Below, one piece after another: positions 15,361 through 27,755 of a stretch of 64,000 nt of DNA (position 1 is its first letter; each line of letters starts with the position of its first letter). The notes under the pieces were generated by a model, which saw nothing but the letters and a program-made list of their open reading frames with translations, made no database searches and was not told where the DNA came from. Both the position numbers and the translations under genes were made by a program. The DNA is from Flavihumibacter soli (lineage in GTDB: Bacteria; Bacteroidota; Bacteroidia; Sphingobacteriales; Sphingobacteriaceae), in NCBI RefSeq assembly GCF_010692725.1, contig NZ_JAAFZB010000093.1:248001-312000 (forward strand), given 5' to 3'.

Positions 15361-17739
15361 TCAAACTAAATTAACCTCTACCCGAAGACCCCTCAATCCG
15401 GACACGCCCTGTAGTTCTTCCAGCTCGAGGTTTTCGATGCCAGGCTTCAAAAGCCCTTTGTTTTGAAGGAAATGAATATATTCTTCGTATTCTAGGGCTT
15501 CTTTTTGATTGCTATATACCAAAGCAATTTTTCCTGGCTGAGTGAGCCGTTCGCCAGTGTTTTTTATACAGGCTTTATCAATTCTTTTCTTTATCACCTC
15601 ATAGCGAATGTTATATGAGCCTTCCACATCAAATCGTCTTTCGTCTCTGCGGAAATTAATCGTAATAGGCTTGTGGTAAATTAAAATCAGCTGAGTTGTT
15701 TCCAGCGGTACATCAAATGAAGGTAAAAGCTGGTTGGTGATACGGGCAATTTCGGCCATCGACTGCAATTGCCACAGGCGGATGTTTTTTAGATACAGCA
15801 AATCAAATGGCCGTTCAGGAGCCATAGTCTGCCCGATGTAAATATTGTATTCCACTCCATCTGTCCTGTATTTTTCGAAGTAATGGGGGTAAGATATCTG
15901 CAGTTTCCTATCCTGCTCTTCCAGGTATTGACTTATTGCCTCATTGATAGAGGTAAGTGTTTGCTCGAACTCATTCCTGAATTTATAAAGTGGACCCTTA
16001 TCGTTTTGGGATATTAGGAAGTATTTGTCTACTATATCCTGTATCAGTGAATTGCTTTTTTGCAGATGTAAGAATACCGGTTCCACCTCATTCAAAAGGA
16101 ACTCACTAAGATATAGTTCGTCTTCGGCTCGTAATCCTTTTTCGATCGACTCCTGAAATTTCTGGTTTTTAAATTTCAACTCTTCCAGCAGGGTAAGCTG
16201 CACATGCGAATCCAGTTCATCTAATGTGGTATCAATTAGAAGTAAATGTTCTCTCAGGTCCCTCTGGATAGCGCAACTACGCTCAACTGAAGAATTTCGA
16301 ACGTCTATGGCACCATAAAGAGGATATAAGTTATCGAAATTGATTTTTTCATCTTCAGCGTTAATCTCCTCAGCCTGAAGTTGAGCCCAGGCTGCTTCTG
16401 AAAATTTCCATTCTACGGAAGGTTGTAGCGCCGTAAATTTCTCTTTTACGAGTCTTTCAATCCTTGTATTGAAAGCATCCCTGCTCTTGAGCATAGCAAG
16501 GGATAGAAGTGGCATGGCTGGTTCCAGGCGCGCCAGTACCTCGTGGGTCAAAAGGTTAGGTGTAGTGGATCCTAGTTCAAGCATTCCAAGTATACCATCG
16601 TTGTTCTGCATTGGATAGTATATATAGCTTCTGATCCCTTCCCGGTATAGGGGCGCCAGAAATGTAGCAAATCCAAGTAAGGTTTCATCCAGGTTTGTTA
16701 TGGGCATTGGTTCGGGCTTCTGCTTCTGGAAATCTATGAACTCGCGGAACTCCCTTATACTCTGTTCATCATTGGCTTTCCAATGTTTACCCAGCAGACT
16801 TTGCCTGGTGCAATCTTCATTCAGTAGAAAGTTGTCATTGATCTTTACAAATGGCATTAAGCCGATCTGGACATCATTCAATCCTATCAATGACCGTGTT
16901 GTCCTCTTCAGGTCGGTAAAGTTGTCGCTGCCGACGTTGGAAGGCATTAACAATATTTTCTTGAGTTGATCGAGGGATTCTGAAGTGGTCACATCTTCAG
17001 CCACCCAAACGGCGAATCCCCGTGCTTCGAATAATTCCAGTGGCATTTTCTTTAACTGCTGCTCCAGATCAAGTATTCGAAAAGTGTTAAGGCAAACAGC
17101 GCAGTCCTGGATAGGGGGGAGCTCGCCTTTAAGCTCCAGGTCGATAAACCGCCGGTCATATCGTATCCGGAAATATCTCATCATCCCGGTCTTTGAATCT
17201 TTCACCGGGAAGATCATTTCAGGATTCTCATTCAGCTTAATCCCGTAATATTTCTCAAGTACATGATCGTAGATCATGGCACATTGAACCTGGGTTAACT
17301 GTTCTTCAGAAAGCTCATAGGGTAATTCTAAATACTTTTCGTTGTCGTCTATAAAGAGATCACGAAATGAGTCGGAATATGAAAAAATAGTAAACTTGTA
17401 GGGTGCTGAAAGGGTAAAATTATTTTCTTTTTCACTGCTTACAACCGGAAATATGGCGGTAGACAGGAACTCCATAAGATCTTCATGATCATTTAGCTGA
17501 TCACTATCGTCAAATCGTTGCAGGAGTGCCGGCTGATCCTCAAATTTTTTGATCAGATATTTATAAAAGTTTGCCCGAGTACCTGACGTGGTAGCAAGCT
17601 TTTCTTTTAAAAAGTTGACGAACGGTAGAAAGGATATATAGCTATCGATCGAAGGGAGTCTGTTGGTGATGTCGGTCTTAGGGGAAAGTATTTTAATCCC
17701 CTTACGAGTGGTGGATTCAGGAATAATTTCGTGTATCAT
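15361..17739 (-). CDS. large GAF-domain protein of unknown function
   Basis: A 792-residue soluble protein with no signal peptide or membrane helix. The middle (about 220-400) has the features of a GAF-type sensor fold, including REGIRSYIYYPMQNNDGI followed by LGMLELGS. Flanking it are long, charged, probably helical regions and a final beta-rich part. No histidine kinase, cyclase, phosphodiesterase or DNA-binding motif is visible, so the output is unknown. Cys residues CAVC at about 230 could bind a ligand. Homologous full-length GAF proteins occur in other Sphingobacteriales, as far as I recall. It is a single gene with a terminator behind it and a divergent region of unclear coding ahead of it. 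Confidence 0.7.
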   Translation of the reverse strand: MIHEIIPESTTRKGIKILSPKTDITNRLPSIDSYISFLPFVNFLKEKLATTSGTRANFYKYLIKKFEDQPALLQRFDDSDQLNDHEDLMEFLSTAIFPVVSSEKENNFTLSAPYKFTIFSYSDSFRDLFIDDNEKYLELPYELSEEQLTQVQCAMIYDHVLEKYYGIKLNENPEMIFPVKDSKTGMMRYFRIRYDRRFIDLELKGELPPIQDCAVCLNTFRILDLEQQLKKMPLELFEARGFAVWVAEDVTTSESLDQLKKILLMPSNVGSDNFTDLKRTTRSLIGLNDVQIGLMPFVKINDNFLLNEDCTRQSLLGKHWKANDEQSIREFREFIDFQKQKPEPMPITNLDETLLGFATFLAPLYREGIRSYIYYPMQNNDGILGMLELGSTTPNLLTHEVLARLEPAMPLLSLAMLKSRDAFNTRIERLVKEKFTALQPSVEWKFSEAAWAQLQAEEINAEDEKINFDNLYPLYGAIDVRNSSVERSCAIQRDLREHLLLIDTTLDELDSHVQLTLLEELKFKNQKFQESIEKGLRAEDELYLSEFLLNEVEPVFLHLQKSNSLIQDIVDKYFLISQNDKGPLYKFRNEFEQTLTSINEAISQYLEEQDRKLQISYPHYFEKYRTDGVEYNIYIGQTMAPERPFDLLYLKNIRLWQLQSMAEIARITNQLLPSFDVPLETTQLILIYHKPITINFRRDERRFDVEGSYNIRYEVIKKRIDKACIKNTGERLTQPGKIALVYSNQKEALEYEEYIHFLQNKGLLKPGIENLELEELQGVSGLRGLRVEVNLV

Positions 17740-18527: not shown

Positions 18528-19853
18528 CTAAATAACTTCTGCCACGACAAAAGTACTTCCCCCGACAAATACCAGGTCATTGTTTCCTGCATTCTTTTTG
18601 GCCGCCTGTAAAGCCTTCTTGACTGAGCCGTAAACATCACCATTTAATCCTAAAGCCCTGGCCTCTTCAGCTAATTCTGCTGCTGCCCTTGCGCGTGGAA
18701 TTTGAGGCTCACAGAAGTAGTATATCGCATCCCGGGGCAGTAAATGAAGAATTTTGGTGATATCTTTATCTTTAACCATTCCGATCACCACATGAAGAGT
18801 ATGATATTCAGAAGCTGCTATGTTCCTTATGACTTCCCGAATGCCGTCTTCATTGTGCCCGGTGTCACAAATCACCAAGGGCTCCGTGCTTATTGTCTGC
18901 CAGCGACCCATTAATCCGGTAAGCGGACCAACCTGTTTTAAAGCATTTTTTAGATGCTCCTGAGTGATCAGAAACCCCTTGTTTCTCAGTTGATCGACCG
19001 CAGATAAGACTGTAGCCAGATTTTTTAGCTGGTATATTCCGGTTAAGTCCAGATCAACATTTAAGGGGGAATCAATCGTGATCACATTTGTCTGGGCGGC
19101 TGAGGGCCGTCGACTAGCGCTTATCGTCAACTTTCCGTGGTTATGTTGCGCATCAGCCCTGGTATCCTCCACTTCCCATTCATCAGAAGCAAAAGTGATT
19201 GGAGAATTATTGTCTGTCGCCGCATTTAAAAATACCAGTTCACTTTCCTGCTGCTTTTCACCTATAACTACCGGCACGCCGGGTTTAATTATGCCGGCTT
19301 TCTCTGAAGCAATCTCTTTTATCGTCTTTCCGAGAATATCTACATGATCCAGCCCGATATTGGTTATTACCGAAAGTACCGGCTCGATGATATTAGTTGA
19401 ATCCAGCCTGCCACCCAAGCCCACTTCAATAACCGCAACATCCACCTGATGCTGAGCAAAATGGTCAAAGGCCATCCCAACAGTAGTTTCAAAAAATGAG
19501 GGGCTGATCTGTTCAATCTGATCCCGGTGTTGATCTATAAAACGGGTTACAGAGCTTTCGGAAATCATCTGCCCATTGATCCGGATCCGTTCACGAAAAT
19601 CCCGCAGGTGTGGAGATGTATATAAACCGGTCTTGTACCCTGCGGTTTGTAGTATAGCTGCAAGCATATGTGAGGTGGAACCCTTACCGTTTGTACCACC
19701 GACATGAATTGAAGTGAATTTGGTTTGGGGGTTACCTAATAGCTGACAAAATTTGATAATATTTTTTAATCCTGGCTTGATAGCAGCCTGGCCCTGGGCA
19801 CTGAACATCGGCAGCCGGGCGTACAGGTATTCAATGGTTTCCTGGTAATTCAT
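18528..19853 (-). CDS. folC: bifunctional folylpolyglutamate / dihydrofolate synthase
   Basis: Adds glutamate to dihydropteroate and to reduced folates in the cytoplasm. The 441-residue protein has the P-loop GGTNGKGST (52-60), the Mur-ligase family segment TNIGLDHVDILGKTIKEIA, the carbamylated-lysine region SEKAGIIKPGVPVVIG and C-terminal VICDTGHNEDGI. All are normal for FolC. It is the last gene of the long minus-strand cluster that begins at 27755, separated by 70 bases from the TonB-like gene. Functionally it does not belong with that envelope cluster but may be read from the same transcript. Confidence 0.95.
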   Translation of the reverse strand: MNYQETIEYLYARLPMFSAQGQAAIKPGLKNIIKFCQLLGNPQTKFTSIHVGGTNGKGSTSHMLAAILQTAGYKTGLYTSPHLRDFRERIRINGQMISESSVTRFIDQHRDQIEQISPSFFETTVGMAFDHFAQHQVDVAVIEVGLGGRLDSTNIIEPVLSVITNIGLDHVDILGKTIKEIASEKAGIIKPGVPVVIGEKQQESELVFLNAATDNNSPITFASDEWEVEDTRADAQHNHGKLTISASRRPSAAQTNVITIDSPLNVDLDLTGIYQLKNLATVLSAVDQLRNKGFLITQEHLKNALKQVGPLTGLMGRWQTISTEPLVICDTGHNEDGIREVIRNIAASEYHTLHVVIGMVKDKDITKILHLLPRDAIYYFCEPQIPRARAAAELAEEARALGLNGDVYGSVKKALQAAKKNAGNNDLVFVGGSTFVVAEVI

Positions 19854-19923: not shown

Positions 19924-20748
19924 CTATTTAACTTTAAAGTTGAACATGACAACTCCTATCTGAACATCGGGCGCAGACTCCAGTCGGTTAAGCTTGGCAC
20001 CTAAAACGGCGGCTTCACATTTGCGCCATAGTGAGAGGTCCGATAGGGTAGTACCGCGGGCTCCGGCACGTGCAAATATTACTTCTCCGGTTTTGTCTAC
20101 TCGTATTTCCACAGCTATCTTTCCGGAGCTTTGCCCGTTATCACTTATCTGGGGAGTACTCAAGAATCTGCGATTAGCGAGGGTGAGGCTAACGCCGCCA
20201 TTTCCCGAACCACCTTCGCCATAATTAGGGGAGAGTGGGTCTCCATCTTTATCACCCTGGTTTCCGGGCTGATCGCCAGTTCCGTCACCTTTCCCTGTAT
20301 CATCATTCTTCTTTCCCTTGTAAAGGGCATTCTGATTAACAGAGGGTTTGTTCTCTTTAGCCGGCAAACTTACCGATGGGTTGCTGCTGGTACTTTTTTC
20401 CTTGCTCACGATCTCCGGTGCGTCCTCAGCATCTTGTGTCACTATTGATTTATCTGTGACTTCTGATGAGGGTGTATTCGCAGGCGTCGGCTCGGTAATT
20501 ACCTTATCGGGAGGAGTATTATTGGCATCAGGTGCGGCCGATGGCTCGTCGACACTCATATAATCATCACCCATGCCGATCACTGAGGTTCCGTAATTTA
20601 CAATGATACCGCCGGTACCTACTTCTTCTGGTGGCATAGCACGGCTGGCTATGATGAAAAAACTAAGCGCCAGCAAGCCAGCCATAATAGCGGTTGAAAT
20701 GGCGAAAGCTTTGGGATAATAATTTTCCTCTTGTTTGCCGTAGTCCAT
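19924..20748 (-). CDS. TonB/TolA-like energy transducer protein
   Basis: A 274-residue protein with a short cytoplasmic N-terminus, one membrane helix (about 12-33, AFAISTAIMAGLLALSFFII) and a long Pro/Glu/Gly-rich periplasmic stretch containing a lysine- and glycine-rich spacer. A C-terminal domain from about residue 195 (RRFLSTPQISDNGQSSGKIA) reads GKIAVEIRVDKTGEVIFARA, the TonB C-terminal pattern. It should carry proton-motive energy from the ExbB/ExbD motor to an outer-membrane partner. Its start codon overlaps the exbD stop by one base (TAATG), so the two are translationally coupled. The natural partner candidate is the barrel protein encoded upstream in the same operon. TonB versus TolA role is undecided. 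Confidence 0.85.
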   Translation of the reverse strand: MDYGKQEENYYPKAFAISTAIMAGLLALSFFIIASRAMPPEEVGTGGIIVNYGTSVIGMGDDYMSVDEPSAAPDANNTPPDKVITEPTPANTPSSEVTDKSIVTQDAEDAPEIVSKEKSTSSNPSVSLPAKENKPSVNQNALYKGKKNDDTGKGDGTGDQPGNQGDKDGDPLSPNYGEGGSGNGGVSLTLANRRFLSTPQISDNGQSSGKIAVEIRVDKTGEVIFARAGARGTTLSDLSLWRKCEAAVLGAKLNRLESAPDVQIGVVMFNFKVK

Positions 20749-21149
20749 TATTTTTTCGTTTCAGTAGCTAAAACAAGTTTTATCTTCAGTTTGTTAGCGA
20801 TGTCCGTCACATCAACGACATTTTCTATGGCGATAGTACGGTCAGCATACAGAATAATCGTCAGATCGGGTGAAGCTTTCTGATATGTTTCTATTCGCTG
20901 AAAAAGCTGTTCGTAAGGGATTTTCTCCTTCTCAACAAAGTATTCCAGGTCTTTCGTGATAGAAACGTTAATGGTTTTTTGAGGCATCGCCTGTCCGGAA
21001 CTTGAACGCGGCAAAAATAGTTTAACCACATTCGGATTCACTACTGCGGAGGCCAGTAAAAAGAACAGGAGTAAAAAGAACATAATATCGTTCAACGCCG
21101 ATGTATGCACCTCTACTGCCGGTCTTCTGCTTCTTTTTCTAAAATTCAT
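20748..21149 (-). CDS. ExbD/TolR-family motor protein
   Basis: A 133-residue protein with a basic N-terminus (MNFRKRSRRP), one membrane helix starting LNDIMFFLLLFFLL and a periplasmic domain of about 85 residues with INVSITKD and ILYADRTI. Asp21 at the start of the helix is the proton-carrying residue of the ExbD/TolR/MotB family. With the neighbouring ExbB/TolQ protein it should form the proton-driven motor of the cluster. It lies 14 bases after exbB and overlaps the TonB-like gene by one base. Confidence 0.93.
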   Translation of the reverse strand: MNFRKRSRRPAVEVHTSALNDIMFFLLLFFLLASAVVNPNVVKLFLPRSSSGQAMPQKTINVSITKDLEYFVEKEKIPYEQLFQRIETYQKASPDLTIILYADRTIAIENVVDVTDIANKLKIKLVLATETKK

Positions 21150-21163
21150 CTGAGTAGCTTAAA

Positions 21164-21868
21164 TTATTTACCCGGCTCTTCCAGCAGATCTATAAACTCA
21201 ATTGCATCGGTTTCCATTCTTAATATAATTCGGTCAACCATTATATTCAGGATGTGATATAGTACGTAGGCAATGATACCGATTATCAGTCCCGCTGCGG
21301 ATGTTATCATCTTGGTGTAAAGGCCTCCTGAAATAGTTCCGATCTCGATAATACCTTTTATTGAAACGTCATGAAATATAGTAATTACCCCAATGATCGT
21401 ACCGACGAACCCGAGCATAGGAGCAATCCCAGCGATGATTCCAAGAATACTTATATTTTTTTCAAGCTTTGAAACTTCCAGTTTTCCCACATTCTCGATA
21501 GCTCCTTCAATATCTTTGATGGGTCTTCCAATACGTAAGAGCCCTTTCTGCAGCATTCTCCCCAGCGGTGTATTGCTGTTGCGGCAGATGGCAATAGCTG
21601 AATCCAGCTTGCCTGATATAACGCTTTGTTTCACCTGGACCATCAGGTTTGATTCATCCGATGATGCTTTGCGAATAGTTAGGTATCGCTCGACGAAAAT
21701 CACCAATCCAATAAATGCAAGTAAAGCGAGAGGGATCATCACCCAACCCCCTTTAAATAAAAGATCAATGAATCGTAGTTCTTCCGCCTGAGGTGCCACC
21801 ACATTAATCGCGGCGGCTGCGCTGTCTGTAATCGGTTTTAAAGTGTCTGCTTGTAATAGGAACATCAT
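21164..21868 (-). CDS. MotA/TolQ/ExbB proton channel family protein
   Basis: A 234-residue inner-membrane protein with three helices (about 40-60, 140-165, 185-210). The motif GIAPMLGFVGTIIGVI between helix 2 and the following loop is the family signature that lines the proton path with the ExbD aspartate. A short extra N-terminal segment (LQADTLKPITDSAAA) precedes helix 1. Only one base separates it from the HU-like/SPOR gene before it and 14 bases from exbD, so it is embedded in a tight operon. TolQ and ExbB cannot be distinguished by motif; the SPOR and TPR neighbours favour a Tol-like envelope role. Confidence 0.95.
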   Translation of the reverse strand: MMFLLQADTLKPITDSAAAAINVVAPQAEELRFIDLLFKGGWVMIPLALLAFIGLVIFVERYLTIRKASSDESNLMVQVKQSVISGKLDSAIAICRNSNTPLGRMLQKGLLRIGRPIKDIEGAIENVGKLEVSKLEKNISILGIIAGIAPMLGFVGTIIGVITIFHDVSIKGIIEIGTISGGLYTKMITSAAGLIIGIIAYVLYHILNIMVDRIILRMETDAIEFIDLLEEPGK

Positions 21869-21869
21869 T

Positions 21870-22937
21870 TTAATTGGTTTTCTTCGTTTTTACCCGGGCT
21901 ATCCAGGCGTCTTTATTTAAGTCTTTTTGTATTCGGATCAGTCCTGTTTTTGCGGAAGCTTCATCATTGAATGTTCCCAAGCTAATCTTAAGTTTAGAGC
22001 CGGGCATATCCTCCACTATTTTGGCATATACACCTTTTGTTTTCAACTGTTTAATATAGGTTTCCGCTTCGCTTCGACGAGCAAAGGCAGCCCCAATTAT
22101 CTCAAAGGTTACCGATTCTGTCTCCTTCGGGGTAGTGGAAATCTCCGTGCTTACTTCAAGCGTGTCGCGAGGCTTTTCAACTTCAAATCCCTGCTTAGCC
22201 AGTTCCTGGTAGATGGTGTCCGCTTCTGCCAGCGAATCCGCTAAAGTCTTATTAATCGGCGGCTGCTCAGGTTTTTTAGCCGGAATTTTGTGTTCAGGCA
22301 CATTCGTCTTTTGCTTGAACATTTCAAATATTTGGGGATAAAGCAGGTATGCGACAATTCCAATAAGTATAAGGCCCGCTGCGGTAAGAATCATCTTACT
22401 GATAGAACTTACTTTACCGTCCTCTTGCGTTTCTGTTTGTGTCTCCTCAAAAGAAGGGGTTTCGACGCTTATTAACTCTTCCGGCGTATCTTCTTCCGGT
22501 TGCGTTGCGACGGCCACAGCGCCTGGCACCGCAGGCACCTTGATGTCTTGTACAGGGAAAAGACCAAAATATTCACCGTTTGAATCATTTTGGACTCCTG
22601 TAAACTGGTAACCTTCCTTAAGCTTCTTTAATCTGCCCAGCGACTCTATATCGGTTTGTCCGTAAACATCGAGCAGGGATTTCACCTGGGCGACGAATTT
22701 TTCAATAAAATAACTGGCAGTATTTATCGAAATATTTTTCTGCTTACTGATATACTCAGTGAGAATAGTATCATCTTCGGATTCTCTGAAGGATAGGCCA
22801 TGTGAAGGCGGTAAATACTCAGCTTTCTCAGGATCAAAAAAACTACGTTTATATTCTTTGTAAAACGTTCCCAAGGATGGGACATTTACCTCGTCATGCA
22901 GTCGTAGTAAATCCGCGATATAAGGGGCAATGTCCAT
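21870..22937 (-). CDS. HU-like (CCDC81-type) domain, membrane helix and SPOR domain protein
   Basis: A 355-residue protein with three parts. Residues 1-118 look like two tandem HU-fold (CCDC81-type) domains: IADLLRLHDEVNVPSLGTF in the first, QVKSLLDVYGQTDIESLG in the second. Residues 182-201 form one membrane helix. After a Pro/Glu-rich linker, residues about 276-350 form a SPOR domain (SVTFEIIGAAFARRSEAE, then VYAKIVEDMPGSKLKISLG and NDEASAKTGL), which in other proteins binds glycan strands bared at the division septum. The topology puts the HU-like part in the cytoplasm and SPOR in the periplasm. It sits one base before exbB, so it probably works with the motor. Domain names are from recognised patterns; the role is inference. 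Confidence 0.85.
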   Translation of the reverse strand: MDIAPYIADLLRLHDEVNVPSLGTFYKEYKRSFFDPEKAEYLPPSHGLSFRESEDDTILTEYISKQKNISINTASYFIEKFVAQVKSLLDVYGQTDIESLGRLKKLKEGYQFTGVQNDSNGEYFGLFPVQDIKVPAVPGAVAVATQPEEDTPEELISVETPSFEETQTETQEDGKVSSISKMILTAAGLILIGIVAYLLYPQIFEMFKQKTNVPEHKIPAKKPEQPPINKTLADSLAEADTIYQELAKQGFEVEKPRDTLEVSTEISTTPKETESVTFEIIGAAFARRSEAETYIKQLKTKGVYAKIVEDMPGSKLKISLGTFNDEASAKTGLIRIQKDLNKDAWIARVKTKKTN

Positions 22938-22979
22938 TCGGGTAAAGATAATTTATAATTCGAAAATCGGGCAATCAAA

Positions 22980-24665
22980 TCAGAAGGAGTAGTTGAATCC
23001 GCCTAATGCATTAAATCCTAACTTCTGATAGTAAAGGTACTGCTGATATGATTTTCCAAAAATATTGTTAGCCCGTAAATACACACCCAGTTTGTTATTG
23101 ATCCTGTATTTTGCCCCGGCGCTCAGATCCGCATAACTCTTTATCACTTCATAGTTTTCAACAGGCAATGGATTGAAGGTGACTGTCTTTGCGTTGCTCT
23201 CACCGTTCAAAAATATTTCAGCGTCAAGGCTAAGCTTTTCATTCACCCTTCCTCTTAGATTGGAACTCAATCGAATGGCTGGTTTAAACCACGCTTCTTT
23301 TTCCGTGGCCATTTTGTAGCTGGCAGCCTCTGCTTTTCCGCTTATGTCAATAGCGCTTGAAACCTTAAAGCTCATTTCACCTTCAAAACCCAGAATACTG
23401 CTGACTCCATCATCATAAATAACGTTGAACCGACTTACATTATAAGGGTCGTTAACGAACAAGGGCAGGTCTTCAATTCTCTTATAATAAGCCATTGCCT
23501 TAAATCCAACACCTGCACCTGCATTACCTTTAACACCTCCGAAGAGGTTCATTTTCTCAATTGCATTCTTAACCAGGTAATCCTTCCCAAGGTATGGGTT
23601 TTCAACACTTAAATCCCGGATGCTCGTTTTCAGAACGTCACCATTTAACCCGGCAAACAGGACAGCATATTCAGCTGCGATCGGAAATTCTGCGGATACT
23701 GCCGGCAATAAGTTAAACCGGCTTTCTGCCCCAAATTCATGAACCAGGTTTAAGCCCAGGTTCAGAAAGAAACCGTTCCCCTGATATTTAATGTAAGGAT
23801 TAGCTCTCAAAAGGTTGTTGCTGATATCATATAGGGAATCCTTTACGCCGGTATAATCAGCGGACGCACCGATGCCAATATGAAAATTCCCAAGCGGCCG
23901 GTTAACATAACCGCTTAAAGTAAAGGAGTTTTCCCGTGCCTGAGCGTTATTGCCAAATAAATACCCATTTGCCTTAACGGCGTAATTGGCTATATCGGGG
24001 TCCTGTGAATAATTGCTCAGCATCTCACCTTCGGCTTCTATGAGATTGAAACGTTGTTTTAAAGGATCTGCCGTAGGAGCGGGGAATTCGGGATTGAAAC
24101 CGTAAAAGAAAGTAGATCGGCGGTTATAACCAATCTTTCCGGCATATGTTTTATCGGTGCCAATACTGCGACCAAATCCGGAGATCTCCTGCTCTGAAAA
24201 CTGCTGCTTATTGATGCTTCCCTGCTGCGATAAATGCTTGATGAACATCCCGGCCTGCAAGGCTTCATCCTTACCCGTATTAATATAAACCTCACCCAGA
24301 CCTGTATTTAAATTTCCGACTCCAATCTTAACAAGGTTGTTGGATAAGGTAATCTCGCGTTCAGCTGCTAGTTGCTGGGCCTGCAACTCTTTGATATTCG
24401 AATTCAGTTCGAGCTTCTTATCGATTACTGTATACGTTAAAACTGGTTTGAACGGTTTGTTATCGTTCAAATCAGGACTGCGTCTAATCTTTACCGCTTC
24501 TGCAAGAATCGGCTTATAAGGACGGACCACTTCAATTTCTTCTGCTATGCTCGCTTTCTCAGGTTCCTTCTTAGGCTGTTCTTTTACCTGGGCCAGTGCT
24601 GAAACCGAAAAAGATATCAGGCATGCAGTAAAGGAGTATTTTATATAAGACTGGTGTAACTTCAT
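22980..24665 (-). CDS. outer-membrane beta-barrel protein of the ExbBD/SPOR cluster
   Basis: A 561-residue protein with a signal peptide (cut after SALA) and a conserved N-terminal segment EEIEVVRPYKPILAEAVKI that could contact a TonB-like partner. The rest is a long series of alternating amphipathic strands ending in aromatic Phe (FNYSF), typical of an outer-membrane barrel with 16 to 20 strands. No plug domain of a classical TonB-dependent receptor is visible; the length is too short for plug plus 22 strands. It lies 60 bases after the TPR gene and 42 before the HU-like/SPOR gene. Role as energised outer-membrane end of the machine is inferred. Confidence 0.75.
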   Translation of the reverse strand: MKLHQSYIKYSFTACLISFSVSALAQVKEQPKKEPEKASIAEEIEVVRPYKPILAEAVKIRRSPDLNDNKPFKPVLTYTVIDKKLELNSNIKELQAQQLAAEREITLSNNLVKIGVGNLNTGLGEVYINTGKDEALQAGMFIKHLSQQGSINKQQFSEQEISGFGRSIGTDKTYAGKIGYNRRSTFFYGFNPEFPAPTADPLKQRFNLIEAEGEMLSNYSQDPDIANYAVKANGYLFGNNAQARENSFTLSGYVNRPLGNFHIGIGASADYTGVKDSLYDISNNLLRANPYIKYQGNGFFLNLGLNLVHEFGAESRFNLLPAVSAEFPIAAEYAVLFAGLNGDVLKTSIRDLSVENPYLGKDYLVKNAIEKMNLFGGVKGNAGAGVGFKAMAYYKRIEDLPLFVNDPYNVSRFNVIYDDGVSSILGFEGEMSFKVSSAIDISGKAEAASYKMATEKEAWFKPAIRLSSNLRGRVNEKLSLDAEIFLNGESNAKTVTFNPLPVENYEVIKSYADLSAGAKYRINNKLGVYLRANNIFGKSYQQYLYYQKLGFNALGGFNYSF

Positions 24666-24725
24666 TATCTAAGCATTTTATATGGGAATCACCGGCACCC
24701 TAAGGGGATACCGCATGACCTAATT

Positions 24726-27700
24726 TTAATTCTTGGTGTTCAACTTTGACAGCTTTTCCCTGGCAACAGGGAGTATGTCCTCCTCTTTCCCTTCGTAATT
24801 CTCGATGATGCTCTGAAGAGTGCTTTTAGCCTGAAAGTTATCATTCATGGCAGTGTAGTTATCTGCGATCAGGATAAATGTTTTCGCTACCCAGTAATCA
24901 TGCGATGGCATTTTATTCGTAAGTTCAAACGCAGTCTTCAGCGAAGTTTTATAATCGGCCTTCAGGTATTGCAGATGAGCCACATTATACTTTGCTTCCG
25001 CACCAGCCACCGACTTGGTTTTTTCTCCCACACCGGTGAACTCCTTAAGGGCAGCTGTTGTGTCACCTTTAGCAAGATTTGCTTTTCCCGCGTATAGTGC
25101 TGCACGCAGTTTGTCCTCTTCAGATGCTGACGCTGATTCCTTAATGAGAGATACATATTTTAAAGTCTCATCAGGCATGTCGATATGCGAATATGCCTCC
25201 ATCAGGTTATTAACTGCAAAGCCATAATTCGCTTTATATTCTGAAGTTATTTCCAGTTTTTTAAGGTGAACGATTGCCTCGTTATATTTTTTCTGCTTCA
25301 GGTAGATGTTTGAGATGCTGATCAATGCCCGTTCTGTAAACTCGCTTGTCCAGTCATTCAGAATAAATTCATAGTCAGGTATAGCCTCATCCGGACGCCC
25401 AAGTTTTACCAGGCTTTCTGCCCGTATAAACTTAGCATGCTTTTCATGGATCGCCTTTGGAAATTTATCGAAGTAGGCATGTACTGCCTCGAAAGTTCCT
25501 GTATAATCACCTTTCAAAAACCGGTTGTTTGCTGCCTGAAAGGTCAGGTTATCCTGCTCGGATGTACTCAGGTTTCCAATGCTTGTCGTGTTGGCATAGG
25601 CGAGGAAGCCATCCGCATCAGATTTATCAAGATAGATGTTTTTGATAGATTCAAGGGCCTGTTTTGCCTCATCAGTGGTTGAATACTCATTTACCACACG
25701 CTTGAACGTTTCCAGGGCCGCATCATCCTGGTCCTGATTGTACTGGACCAAGCCTATTGTAACCAGGGCACGGGGAACATAACTACTACGTGGATATTTT
25801 TGAATAAGTGCCGTCAGGTCGGCCTTAGATTTATCAAAGTCACCTTTCACAAAGTATGTATATGCTATTTCGAACCCGGCATCATCAGCATAATTTGAAT
25901 TGGGATACTTGGCGAGAAGCGACTGATGTGTAGCTATCTTAGCATCGTTCTGGGTTTCTAGCCCCTGTATCATACCCCTTTGGAATAGCGCGTAGTCTTC
26001 GCCCGGGGCATTGGAAGCGATGATCTTGTTATAGCTCGATAAGGCATTCCCATAACTTTTAAGTACAAAGTATGAATCTGCAAGCCGTACCGTCGCATCA
26101 TTCAACGTATTACGATCACGCTCATTACTTTGGATAAACCGTGTGAAATAGGTAGCAGCCTTCCCGTAATTTTCATGTTCAAAGGCAGCATAAGCTAAGG
26201 CATAGTTCGCAAAGTTATATACCTCTGTTTTGCGGGCTGCCGGCATCGCCAGGAACTTTTCAAAGTTATCTACAGACTCCCCAAACTTTCTTACCTCAAA
26301 CATAGCCTCCGCCAGCCAATAAGTGGATAAAGCTTCAATATCTTCATCCACTGCGTTGTTATTCGACCGCATGAACACTGATATCGCGTTCTGAAAAGCG
26401 CGCTCATTATAGAATTCAAGGCCGCGGTAATAAGTTACTTTCTGGTATGCGGCCTTGGCATTTTGATTTTTGTTCGGAATGCTCTCAAGGATATCAATAG
26501 CGTCTTTATAGTTCTTTGTCGTTAGTAAGATCTCTCCTAACAAAGTCTTAGCCTCGTCCGTGCGCTTGGACTTAGGATATGTTTTTAAGAACTCCTGAGC
26601 CGCATCTAAGGCCACCTGATGAAATTCAAGTTCGTATGACAGCTTGGCGTAGTTAAACAAGCCTTCTTCCTGTAGTGCCTTGTCAAAGTTTAAACGGGAA
26701 GCCTTGAAAAAGGCGCTTCTGGCAGATTGCTTGTTTCCTGTCTTTAAAAAGGATTCCCCCAGGGCGATCATCCCGCTCTGAAAATACTGATCGGGCGTAT
26801 CGAGTTTTTCCAGTTCCTTTACCGCCTTCTGATAGTCCTTTAGCTTATAATACGTATAACCGATCTGGTAACTATCCTGGTTATTCTGAGTTTTTCCCTT
26901 ATCATTTGCCTGGAAGCGCTGGTAATACTCTCCAGCATTTTTGTAATCCGACTTCGCGAAATAGGAAGCACCGATTATGCGCAGCATTTCGGTTTGGTAT
27001 TGCTGATCAATAGTTTTAAGCGCCGGGATAGTATACTTTAAGACATCGTCATACCGCTTGTCGAGAAAATAGAGCGCGGAAATGTAATACGGATAGGAAT
27101 TCTGATAGGTAGTGGAACCTTTAAGTCGTTCAAACTCGCGCAATGCTGTCTTATAATCTGCACTTAGATAATTGATGTACGCGTAATAGTAAATCGACGG
27201 CTCCTTATACTCCGTGCTCTCATCTTTAAGTTTCCCAAATAAAGGCTCTGCACTCGTATAGTTTTTCGTTTCGAAAAAAGAGTACCCTAATTTGAAACGA
27301 TATTCTGCACTTTCCTTAGCAGTTAAAGAGTTCTGGTCGATCTTTTTAAACCATTCGATGGCTTTAGGATAATTTCTTTGTGCAAAATAAGATCGTCCCA
27401 CCTGGTAGTAAGCAATACGTGTGTTTGCATTCACCGGATGTCGTGCGATGAATTTCAAGAACAGGCTTTCGGCATCCTGATTACCTAATTCGAGCGCACA
27501 AAGCGCCTGGTAATACTCAGAATTCTCTTTCAGAAGACTTATCTCCTTATCGTTCAGGGGCTTTCCCTCCGGCAGGATATTCCAGCTTTTCACGCGGCTG
27601 AACTGTTCGGACGCTGCTGCATACTTCCCATGGTCCAGTAGCTCTAATCCAGTTTTATAGGATTGATTAAGCGTGTACCAGGCTGTTTGCTGAGAGTAAG

Positions 27701-27755
27701 AGTTGCTGAAAAGAAATGACAGGAAAAATGTGAGGCAGATATATCGATTTAACAT
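24726..27755 (-). CDS. large exported TPR protein
   Basis: A 1009-residue protein with a signal peptide (cleavage near SNSYSQ) and almost nothing but tetratricopeptide-type helix pairs, with the recurring pattern Y..GxxxFxxxxYxxAxxxF, for example YFAQRNYPKAIEWFKKI and YFAKSDYKNAGEYYQRF. Such arrays bind protein partners and occur in periplasmic proteins like CpoB and BamD. It is the first gene of the cluster with barrel, HU-like/SPOR and ExbBD-TonB proteins, and has its own -7 box at 27778-27785. A periplasmic scaffold for the complex is the simplest idea. No enzyme domain is visible. Confidence 0.85.
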   Translation of the reverse strand: MLNRYICLTFFLSFLFSNSYSQQTAWYTLNQSYKTGLELLDHGKYAAASEQFSRVKSWNILPEGKPLNDKEISLLKENSEYYQALCALELGNQDAESLFLKFIARHPVNANTRIAYYQVGRSYFAQRNYPKAIEWFKKIDQNSLTAKESAEYRFKLGYSFFETKNYTSAEPLFGKLKDESTEYKEPSIYYYAYINYLSADYKTALREFERLKGSTTYQNSYPYYISALYFLDKRYDDVLKYTIPALKTIDQQYQTEMLRIIGASYFAKSDYKNAGEYYQRFQANDKGKTQNNQDSYQIGYTYYKLKDYQKAVKELEKLDTPDQYFQSGMIALGESFLKTGNKQSARSAFFKASRLNFDKALQEEGLFNYAKLSYELEFHQVALDAAQEFLKTYPKSKRTDEAKTLLGEILLTTKNYKDAIDILESIPNKNQNAKAAYQKVTYYRGLEFYNERAFQNAISVFMRSNNNAVDEDIEALSTYWLAEAMFEVRKFGESVDNFEKFLAMPAARKTEVYNFANYALAYAAFEHENYGKAATYFTRFIQSNERDRNTLNDATVRLADSYFVLKSYGNALSSYNKIIASNAPGEDYALFQRGMIQGLETQNDAKIATHQSLLAKYPNSNYADDAGFEIAYTYFVKGDFDKSKADLTALIQKYPRSSYVPRALVTIGLVQYNQDQDDAALETFKRVVNEYSTTDEAKQALESIKNIYLDKSDADGFLAYANTTSIGNLSTSEQDNLTFQAANNRFLKGDYTGTFEAVHAYFDKFPKAIHEKHAKFIRAESLVKLGRPDEAIPDYEFILNDWTSEFTERALISISNIYLKQKKYNEAIVHLKKLEITSEYKANYGFAVNNLMEAYSHIDMPDETLKYVSLIKESASASEEDKLRAALYAGKANLAKGDTTAALKEFTGVGEKTKSVAGAEAKYNVAHLQYLKADYKTSLKTAFELTNKMPSHDYWVAKTFILIADNYTAMNDNFQAKSTLQSIIENYEGKEEDILPVAREKLSKLNTKN

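Follow-up and report, generated by a model that had tools for sequence, protein, structure and literature searches.

The window analysed here is a stretch of 64,000 nucleotides from Flavihumibacter soli, and it carries six closely packed genes on the minus strand. These genes, the features within them and a conserved neighbour are as follows.

24726..27755, minus strand: TPR protein of 1009 amino acids, with a signal peptide lacking a lipobox and a soluble periplasmic superhelix.
22980..24665, minus strand: outer-membrane barrel of 561 amino acids, a complete barrel of the TonB-dependent transporter (TBDT) type without a plug, kept in 131 of 139 class genomes.
24510..24542, minus strand: TonB-box-like segment EEIEVVRPYKP, residues 42-52 of the barrel protein, in its disordered N-terminal tail.
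21870..22937, minus strand: HU/SPOR inner-membrane protein of 355 amino acids, with two N-terminal HU-CCDC81 domains, one transmembrane (TM) helix and a C-terminal SPOR domain.
21900..22091, minus strand: SPOR domain, residues 283-346 of the HU/SPOR protein (Pfam E 9e-7).
21164..21868, minus strand: ExbB/TolQ-type proton channel subunit (Pfam MotA_ExbB, 1e-21).
20748..21149, minus strand: ExbD/TolR-type subunit (Pfam ExbD, 1.5e-23), with an invariant TM aspartate, D21.
19924..20748, minus strand: TonB/TolA-like force transducer, with a TM helix, a long linker and a TonB-type C-terminal domain.
19927..20133, minus strand: TonB-type C-terminal domain, approximately residues 206-274 of the TonB-like protein, from the model and fold matches.
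18528..19853, minus strand: folC, the conserved neighbour 3' of the TonB-like gene, outside the machine.

From the TPR gene to the TonB-like gene the intergenic gaps are 60, 42, 1 and 14 bases, followed by a 1-base overlap, exactly the layout of six minus-strand genes that a first-pass annotation of this DNA had described. The cluster is flanked by pyrB on one side and folC on the other. Although folC is probably co-transcribed with the TonB-like gene, both it and pyrB/pyrR/rpsA were rejected as members of the machine because they are housekeeping genes. A 792-residue protein encoded on the minus strand downstream of folC (window 15361-17739) has no Pfam match. A Pfam search of the window proteins found many TPRs in the TPR protein and the families HU-CCDC81_bac_1, HU-CCDC81_bac_2 and SPOR in the HU/SPOR protein, in keeping with its initial description as HU-like/SPOR. 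The same search returned no family for the barrel or the TonB-like protein, which probably explains why the set went overlooked. No description of the six-gene set was found in the literature searched (preprints and most subscription journals lay outside its scope).

The first-pass annotation had read the last three genes as a complete ExbB/ExbD/TonB-type set, and Pfam families for the first two together with fold matches for the third support this assignment. The C-terminal domain of the TonB-like protein was modelled confidently as a beta-beta-alpha-beta fold, and the top Foldseek matches of the model were the C-terminal domains of TonB, FusB and TolA (probability about 1, target TM-score 0.57-0.70, whole-model E about 0.01). 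The TM histidine of TonB and TolA is usually held to be essential. It is present in 0 of 21 members of the family and in 8 of 12 ExbB/ExbD-linked transducers outside the class, and the Bacteroidia version has therefore lost it.

The AF2 model of the barrel protein (pLDDT 74) is disordered at residues 22-107. TBDTs alone stand at the top of a PDB fold search with this model, and they dominate the list to the point that the missing of other barrel families from it is no evidence against them. Pairwise alignments with VIA-align 2 gave Z 22.3 and an rmsd of 3.0 over 422 residues for FhuA, and Z 21.8 and an rmsd of 3.5 over 399 residues for BtuB. Model residues 107-561 map to FhuA 159-714 and BtuB 134-594, an overlap that takes in the entire barrel and leaves out the plug; alignment rows that start at model residues 49-56 involve the low-confidence tail and were not read as plug. 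The sequence profile additionally matches the barrel of FepA (E 1e-5). The plug is absent: the roughly 80 disordered residues that precede the barrel are too short to form one, the protein has no Plug match in Pfam, and the structural alignments begin past the plug.

The most conserved stretch of the barrel tail is EEIEVVRPYKPVLADAVKIRR, for which some members of the same family have EEIVVTTAYKP. Barrels of other classes carry a TonB box of the ELPEVIVTGR, DLPEFVITG or ELPEVIVTG type at the same place in the tail (14 of 23, where shuffled tails predict 0.09 of 23), and the EEIEVVRPYKP/EEIVVTTAYKP form found inside the class is a divergent variant of it. Alignment and model thus agree with the earlier description of a plugless barrel with a conserved EIEVVRPYKP segment, which lies within E42-P52. 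On direct sequence evidence, we take the protein to be a TBDT barrel that has no plug and that bears a predicted TonB docking site in its free N-terminal tail. One genome (G016, L241:2826-5432) has, in addition to a normal TPR-barrel pair, an extra gene that fuses the barrel signal and TonB-box tail (SIEIVRDYRPMLADVVKIRR) in frame with the TPR protein, starting near residue 246 of the latter. This single natural fusion is a weak indication that the barrel tail and the TPR protein are physically linked.

With the TonB-ExbB-ExbD systems that serve TBDTs such as FhuA, BtuB and FepA, the cluster shares the ExbB and ExbD families, the fold of the TonB-type C-terminal domain, the TonB box and the complete barrel fold. 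It differs from them in having no plug, and hence no substrate-gated pore, in including TPR and SPOR proteins in the operon and in the missing TM histidine of the family. A TBDT barrel, a TonB box and a TonB-type C-terminal domain would suit TonB-dependent uptake of an unnamed nutrient with the TPR protein replacing the plug, as would the support that an orthologous motor in Riemerella anatipestifer gives to hemin and iron uptake (PMC4446302). We regard uptake as distinctly unlikely, given that there is no plug, no substrate-binding lipoprotein and no transport gene nearby, that a SPOR gene sits within the operon, and that the set occurs in nearly every sampled class genome and in other classes whatever the lifestyle.

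A plugless barrel of the TBDT type would be a wide pore in need of a closure, for which the TPR protein is the most plausible candidate, and the best rival explanation is therefore an energised channel for export or assembly. In such a channel the TPR protein would close and feed the wide barrel, the TonB motor would gate it, and polymer, lipid or protein would be moved outwards. The near-invariant adjacency of the TPR and barrel genes recalls the TPR/barrel pairs of exopolysaccharide exporters, and the TBDT Oar is required for protein secretion in Myxococcus (PMC6434023). However, the conserved set comes without a synthase, glycosyltransferase or substrate gene, its neighbours (folC, pyrB, topA and pdxJ) are housekeeping genes, the barrel is of the TBDT type and not of the 16/18-strand exporter type, and export leaves the SPOR protein and the linkage to the motor unexplained. 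We therefore consider an export channel unlikely.

All 20 loci fetched from the same family keep the order TPR-barrel-SPOR-ExbB-ExbD-TonB intact, which puts the gene set far beyond chance, and folC comes next in 19 of them. The SPOR gene is the fastest evolving of the six, with a mean column identity in the same-family alignments of 29% versus 47-73% for the other five. In two same-family lineages (L040:6615-7211 and L041:6468-7067) the HU/SPOR protein is reduced to about 200 residues, with the HU and TM parts and without the SPOR half.

Broad profiles detected the TPR protein, like the barrel, in 131 of the 139 class genomes sampled, and in 118 of the 129 class genomes with both, the TPR gene lies directly upstream of the barrel gene on the same strand (median of 104 bases between the matched parts). 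ExbB of the cluster type is present in 133 of the 139. In 14 class genomes, spread over six families, it follows the barrel gene on the same strand at a distance of 0.9-1.5 kb, enough to fit a single gene; in most class genomes the motor genes ExbB-ExbD-TonB are located away from the TPR-barrel pair, often still with folC after them. The linkage of folC to the TonB-like gene persists even where the motor has moved away. In family f11 (L087, L088, L166 and L167) the TPR-barrel pair is directly upstream of topA and ExbB-ExbD-TonB is directly downstream of pdxJ. In P. gingivalis the members may be PG0752/PG0753, beside topA. Two complete TPR-barrel pairs per genome were observed in G627 and G663 (f52) and in G677 (f70), at loci L242-L244.

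The barrel is also widespread in other classes of the phylum Bacteroidota. Eight families of these classes (f14, f16, f18, f21, f23, f30, f33 and f34) have the order TPR-barrel-SPOR-ExbB-ExbD-TonB, complete or with one member missing or unrecognised, and further families outside the class have TPR-barrel-SPOR-TonB without ExbB/ExbD. In the other classes almost every middle gene tested encodes a SPOR domain, L091 being an exception without SPOR, and an HU-type N-terminus is usual in f23, f16 and f34. The last gene has a TonB_C domain in Pfam wherever tested. In family f17 the first barrel profile matched the C-terminal parts of longer proteins (620-840 amino acids); as these are probably ordinary TBDTs, they were excluded from the count. 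The gene order noted in the first-pass annotation is accordingly shared well beyond the genus, by the 20 same-family loci and by many families in other classes, and the six-gene set is apparently an ancient machine kept across the phylum Bacteroidota.

A tree of 57 ExbB sequences, midpoint-rooted for drawing only, groups every barrel-linked ExbB and the relocated ExbBs of class genomes in one clade (98/96), apart from 21 second ExbBs, which are paralogs. The linked ExbBs of other classes branch first, and the linkage of motor and barrel therefore looks ancestral, its relocation in class genomes derived. This history bears on the possibility that the cluster consists of two unrelated neighbouring modules, a general TonB motor beside a TPR-barrel pair that has a role apart from it. 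Two neighbours of this kind would account for the separation of motor and TPR-barrel genes in most class genomes and for the ability of the motor to work with standard TBDTs, as it can in R. anatipestifer and in E. coli (PMC4446302). We find this very unlikely, as the linkage recurs in at least six families of the class and at least eight outside it and looks ancestral, the barrel carries a TonB box, and a second ExbB, distinct from that of the cluster, occurs in many of the genomes sampled.

The closest experimental information comes from the TonB1/TonBA system of R. anatipestifer. One R. anatipestifer primer, compared with the whole genomes of family f3, has matches in two genomes of one genus, and all tested primers published for tonBA and tonBB of this species (PMC8383284) match one of the two, G609. 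In a scan of contigs that first primer had only a chance match, in Neorhizobium. The TonB1/TonBA system of G609 corresponds to the cluster motor (ExbB E 1e-68, ExbD 2e-26, TonB 4e-13) and falls inside the motor clade of the ExbB tree. Both the orthologous ExbB-ExbD-TonB motor and a TPR-barrel pair are present in this genome; it differs from the cluster in that the two are unlinked there, and the motor has been studied only for hemin and iron uptake and for transformation (PMC4446302, PMC5109031, PMC8383284). The tonB1 gene can be deleted with a fall in growth, hemin uptake is nearly lost only when tonB2 is also gone, and in E. coli the ExbB1-ExbD1-TonB1 set energises both a hemin receptor and the uptake of iron (PMC4446302, PMC5109031). 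A tonBA mutant was not iron-starved in a streptonigrin test and its natural transformation was reduced (PMC8383284). It follows from these genetics that such a transducer can drive standard receptors, that it is not essential in R. anatipestifer and that its main job is unexplained by iron. The first-pass annotation had also offered the idea of a dedicated energised system, against which it counts that this motor is deletable, redundant with TonB2 for hemin and able to power iron and hemin receptors in E. coli.

The other proposal made in the first-pass annotation was a Bacteroidota counterpart of Tol-Pal. The cluster shares with Tol-Pal (TolQRA-TolB-Pal-CpoB) a TPR protein in the operon and a likely link to peptidoglycan, and its motor and transducer may be of the TolQ/TolR/TolA type. 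It differs in having neither the TolB propeller nor Pal, its outer-membrane partner being a barrel and its wall binder an inner-membrane SPOR protein: TolB was not found in the cluster, and Pfam identified no OmpA-domain gene among the six. The motor matches at family level only, and scores for the tolQ and tolR equivalogs are far below the cut-off. TolB_N matched in 2 of 139 class genomes, one of these matches being G289:C2:735695-735913 (L219, E 3e-6), and was not found in the genome that contains the window, in a search whose control detected E. coli TolB. The control genome of Bacteroides ihuae also gives a TolB_N match. A 2025 survey reported Bacteroidetes to be without identifiable tol-pal loci, with further systems still to be revealed (PMC12204202). 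PorE, a proposed outer membrane-wall tether from the same phylum, is likewise a candidate substitute for Tol-Pal functions; it differs in being a lipoprotein, a CpoB-TolB-Pal-like fusion associated with type IX secretion, with no motor genes described alongside (PMC12204202). The Tol-Pal analogy is functionally plausible in view of the deeply conserved trans-envelope motor set, its SPOR partner and the near absence of TolB from the class; what does not carry over is the nature of the parts, which are TonB-like (a plugless TBDT barrel and a TonB box) and lack a TolB or Pal in the cluster. In some family members the SPOR partner is cut down to its HU half.

Motility machines provide a further comparison. 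The Agl/Glt machine of Myxococcus likewise combines a TolQR-type motor, a TonB-like transducer (GltG), TPR proteins and an outer-membrane component, and differs in its barrel type, its FHA-domain transducer and its AglRQS motor with two TolR-like subunits; this gliding machinery was reported not to be conserved in Bacteroidetes (PMC3169522). Pfam detected neither an FHA domain as in GltG nor a small GltH-like barrel in the cluster. In favour of an accessory role in gliding motility or type IX secretion are the fact that the phylum is known for both and a weak match of the TPR protein to PorW/SprE (49 bits, where the cut-off is 250). With ExbB and ExbD belonging to the ordinary MotA_ExbB and ExbD families, no type IX secretion gene recognised in the inspected loci and the set present in nearly all sampled class genomes, such a role is extremely unlikely.

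The gene set, its order and deep conservation, the folds, the TonB box and the missing plug were established computationally. What we infer about contacts between the parts, the origin of force, a septal location and the role is the following. Powered by the proton gradient, ExbB-ExbD would set the TonB-like protein in motion; the C-terminal domain of the latter would span the periplasm and take hold of the barrel protein at the TonB box of its free N-terminal tail. Without a plug to extract, the pull would most likely serve a mechanical purpose: holding the outer membrane together with the wall and inner membrane, or driving the large TPR protein, which would sit at the barrel mouth or beneath it. 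In other bacteria the ligand of SPOR domains is denuded septal glycan, and the HU-TM-SPOR protein may tether the machine to peptidoglycan, probably to the denuded glycan of constriction sites.

We favour, at slightly less than an even chance, a single proton-driven trans-envelope machine for coupling of the outer membrane and wall in growth and division, a functional counterpart of Tol-Pal. This role is preferred because the set is near-universal, a wall binder is present, no substrate gene is found, TolB is nearly absent and the survey reported no tol-pal loci (PMC12204202). The recurring linked order, the TonB box and the ability of R. anatipestifer TonB1 to energise TBDTs in E. coli (PMC4446302) argue for one machine; the unlinked motor of most class genomes, the TonB TM histidine absent from all 21 members, the two lineages without the SPOR half and the divergent TonB box of the class argue against it. 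The R. anatipestifer tonB1 phenotypes, which concern hemin uptake, growth and natural transformation and not division (PMC4446302, PMC8383284), speak against a division role. A more specific version is possible although doubtful: a phylum-wide replacement of Tol-Pal, in which a TonB-type motor would pull the plugless barrel under the guidance of the SPOR protein, itself connected through its cytoplasmic HU domains to the nucleoid or the division apparatus, so as to draw the outer membrane in at constriction.

The six-gene set addresses the open question of how Bacteroidota without reported tol-pal loci keep the outer membrane attached to the wall and inner membrane while dividing, and it supplies a concrete list of genes and a testable contact, that of the TonB-like C-terminal domain with the barrel tail. 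If the proposed machine is real, TonB force on a barrel without a plug would be a use of this force other than import, and it could matter for the envelope of gut and soil Bacteroidota.
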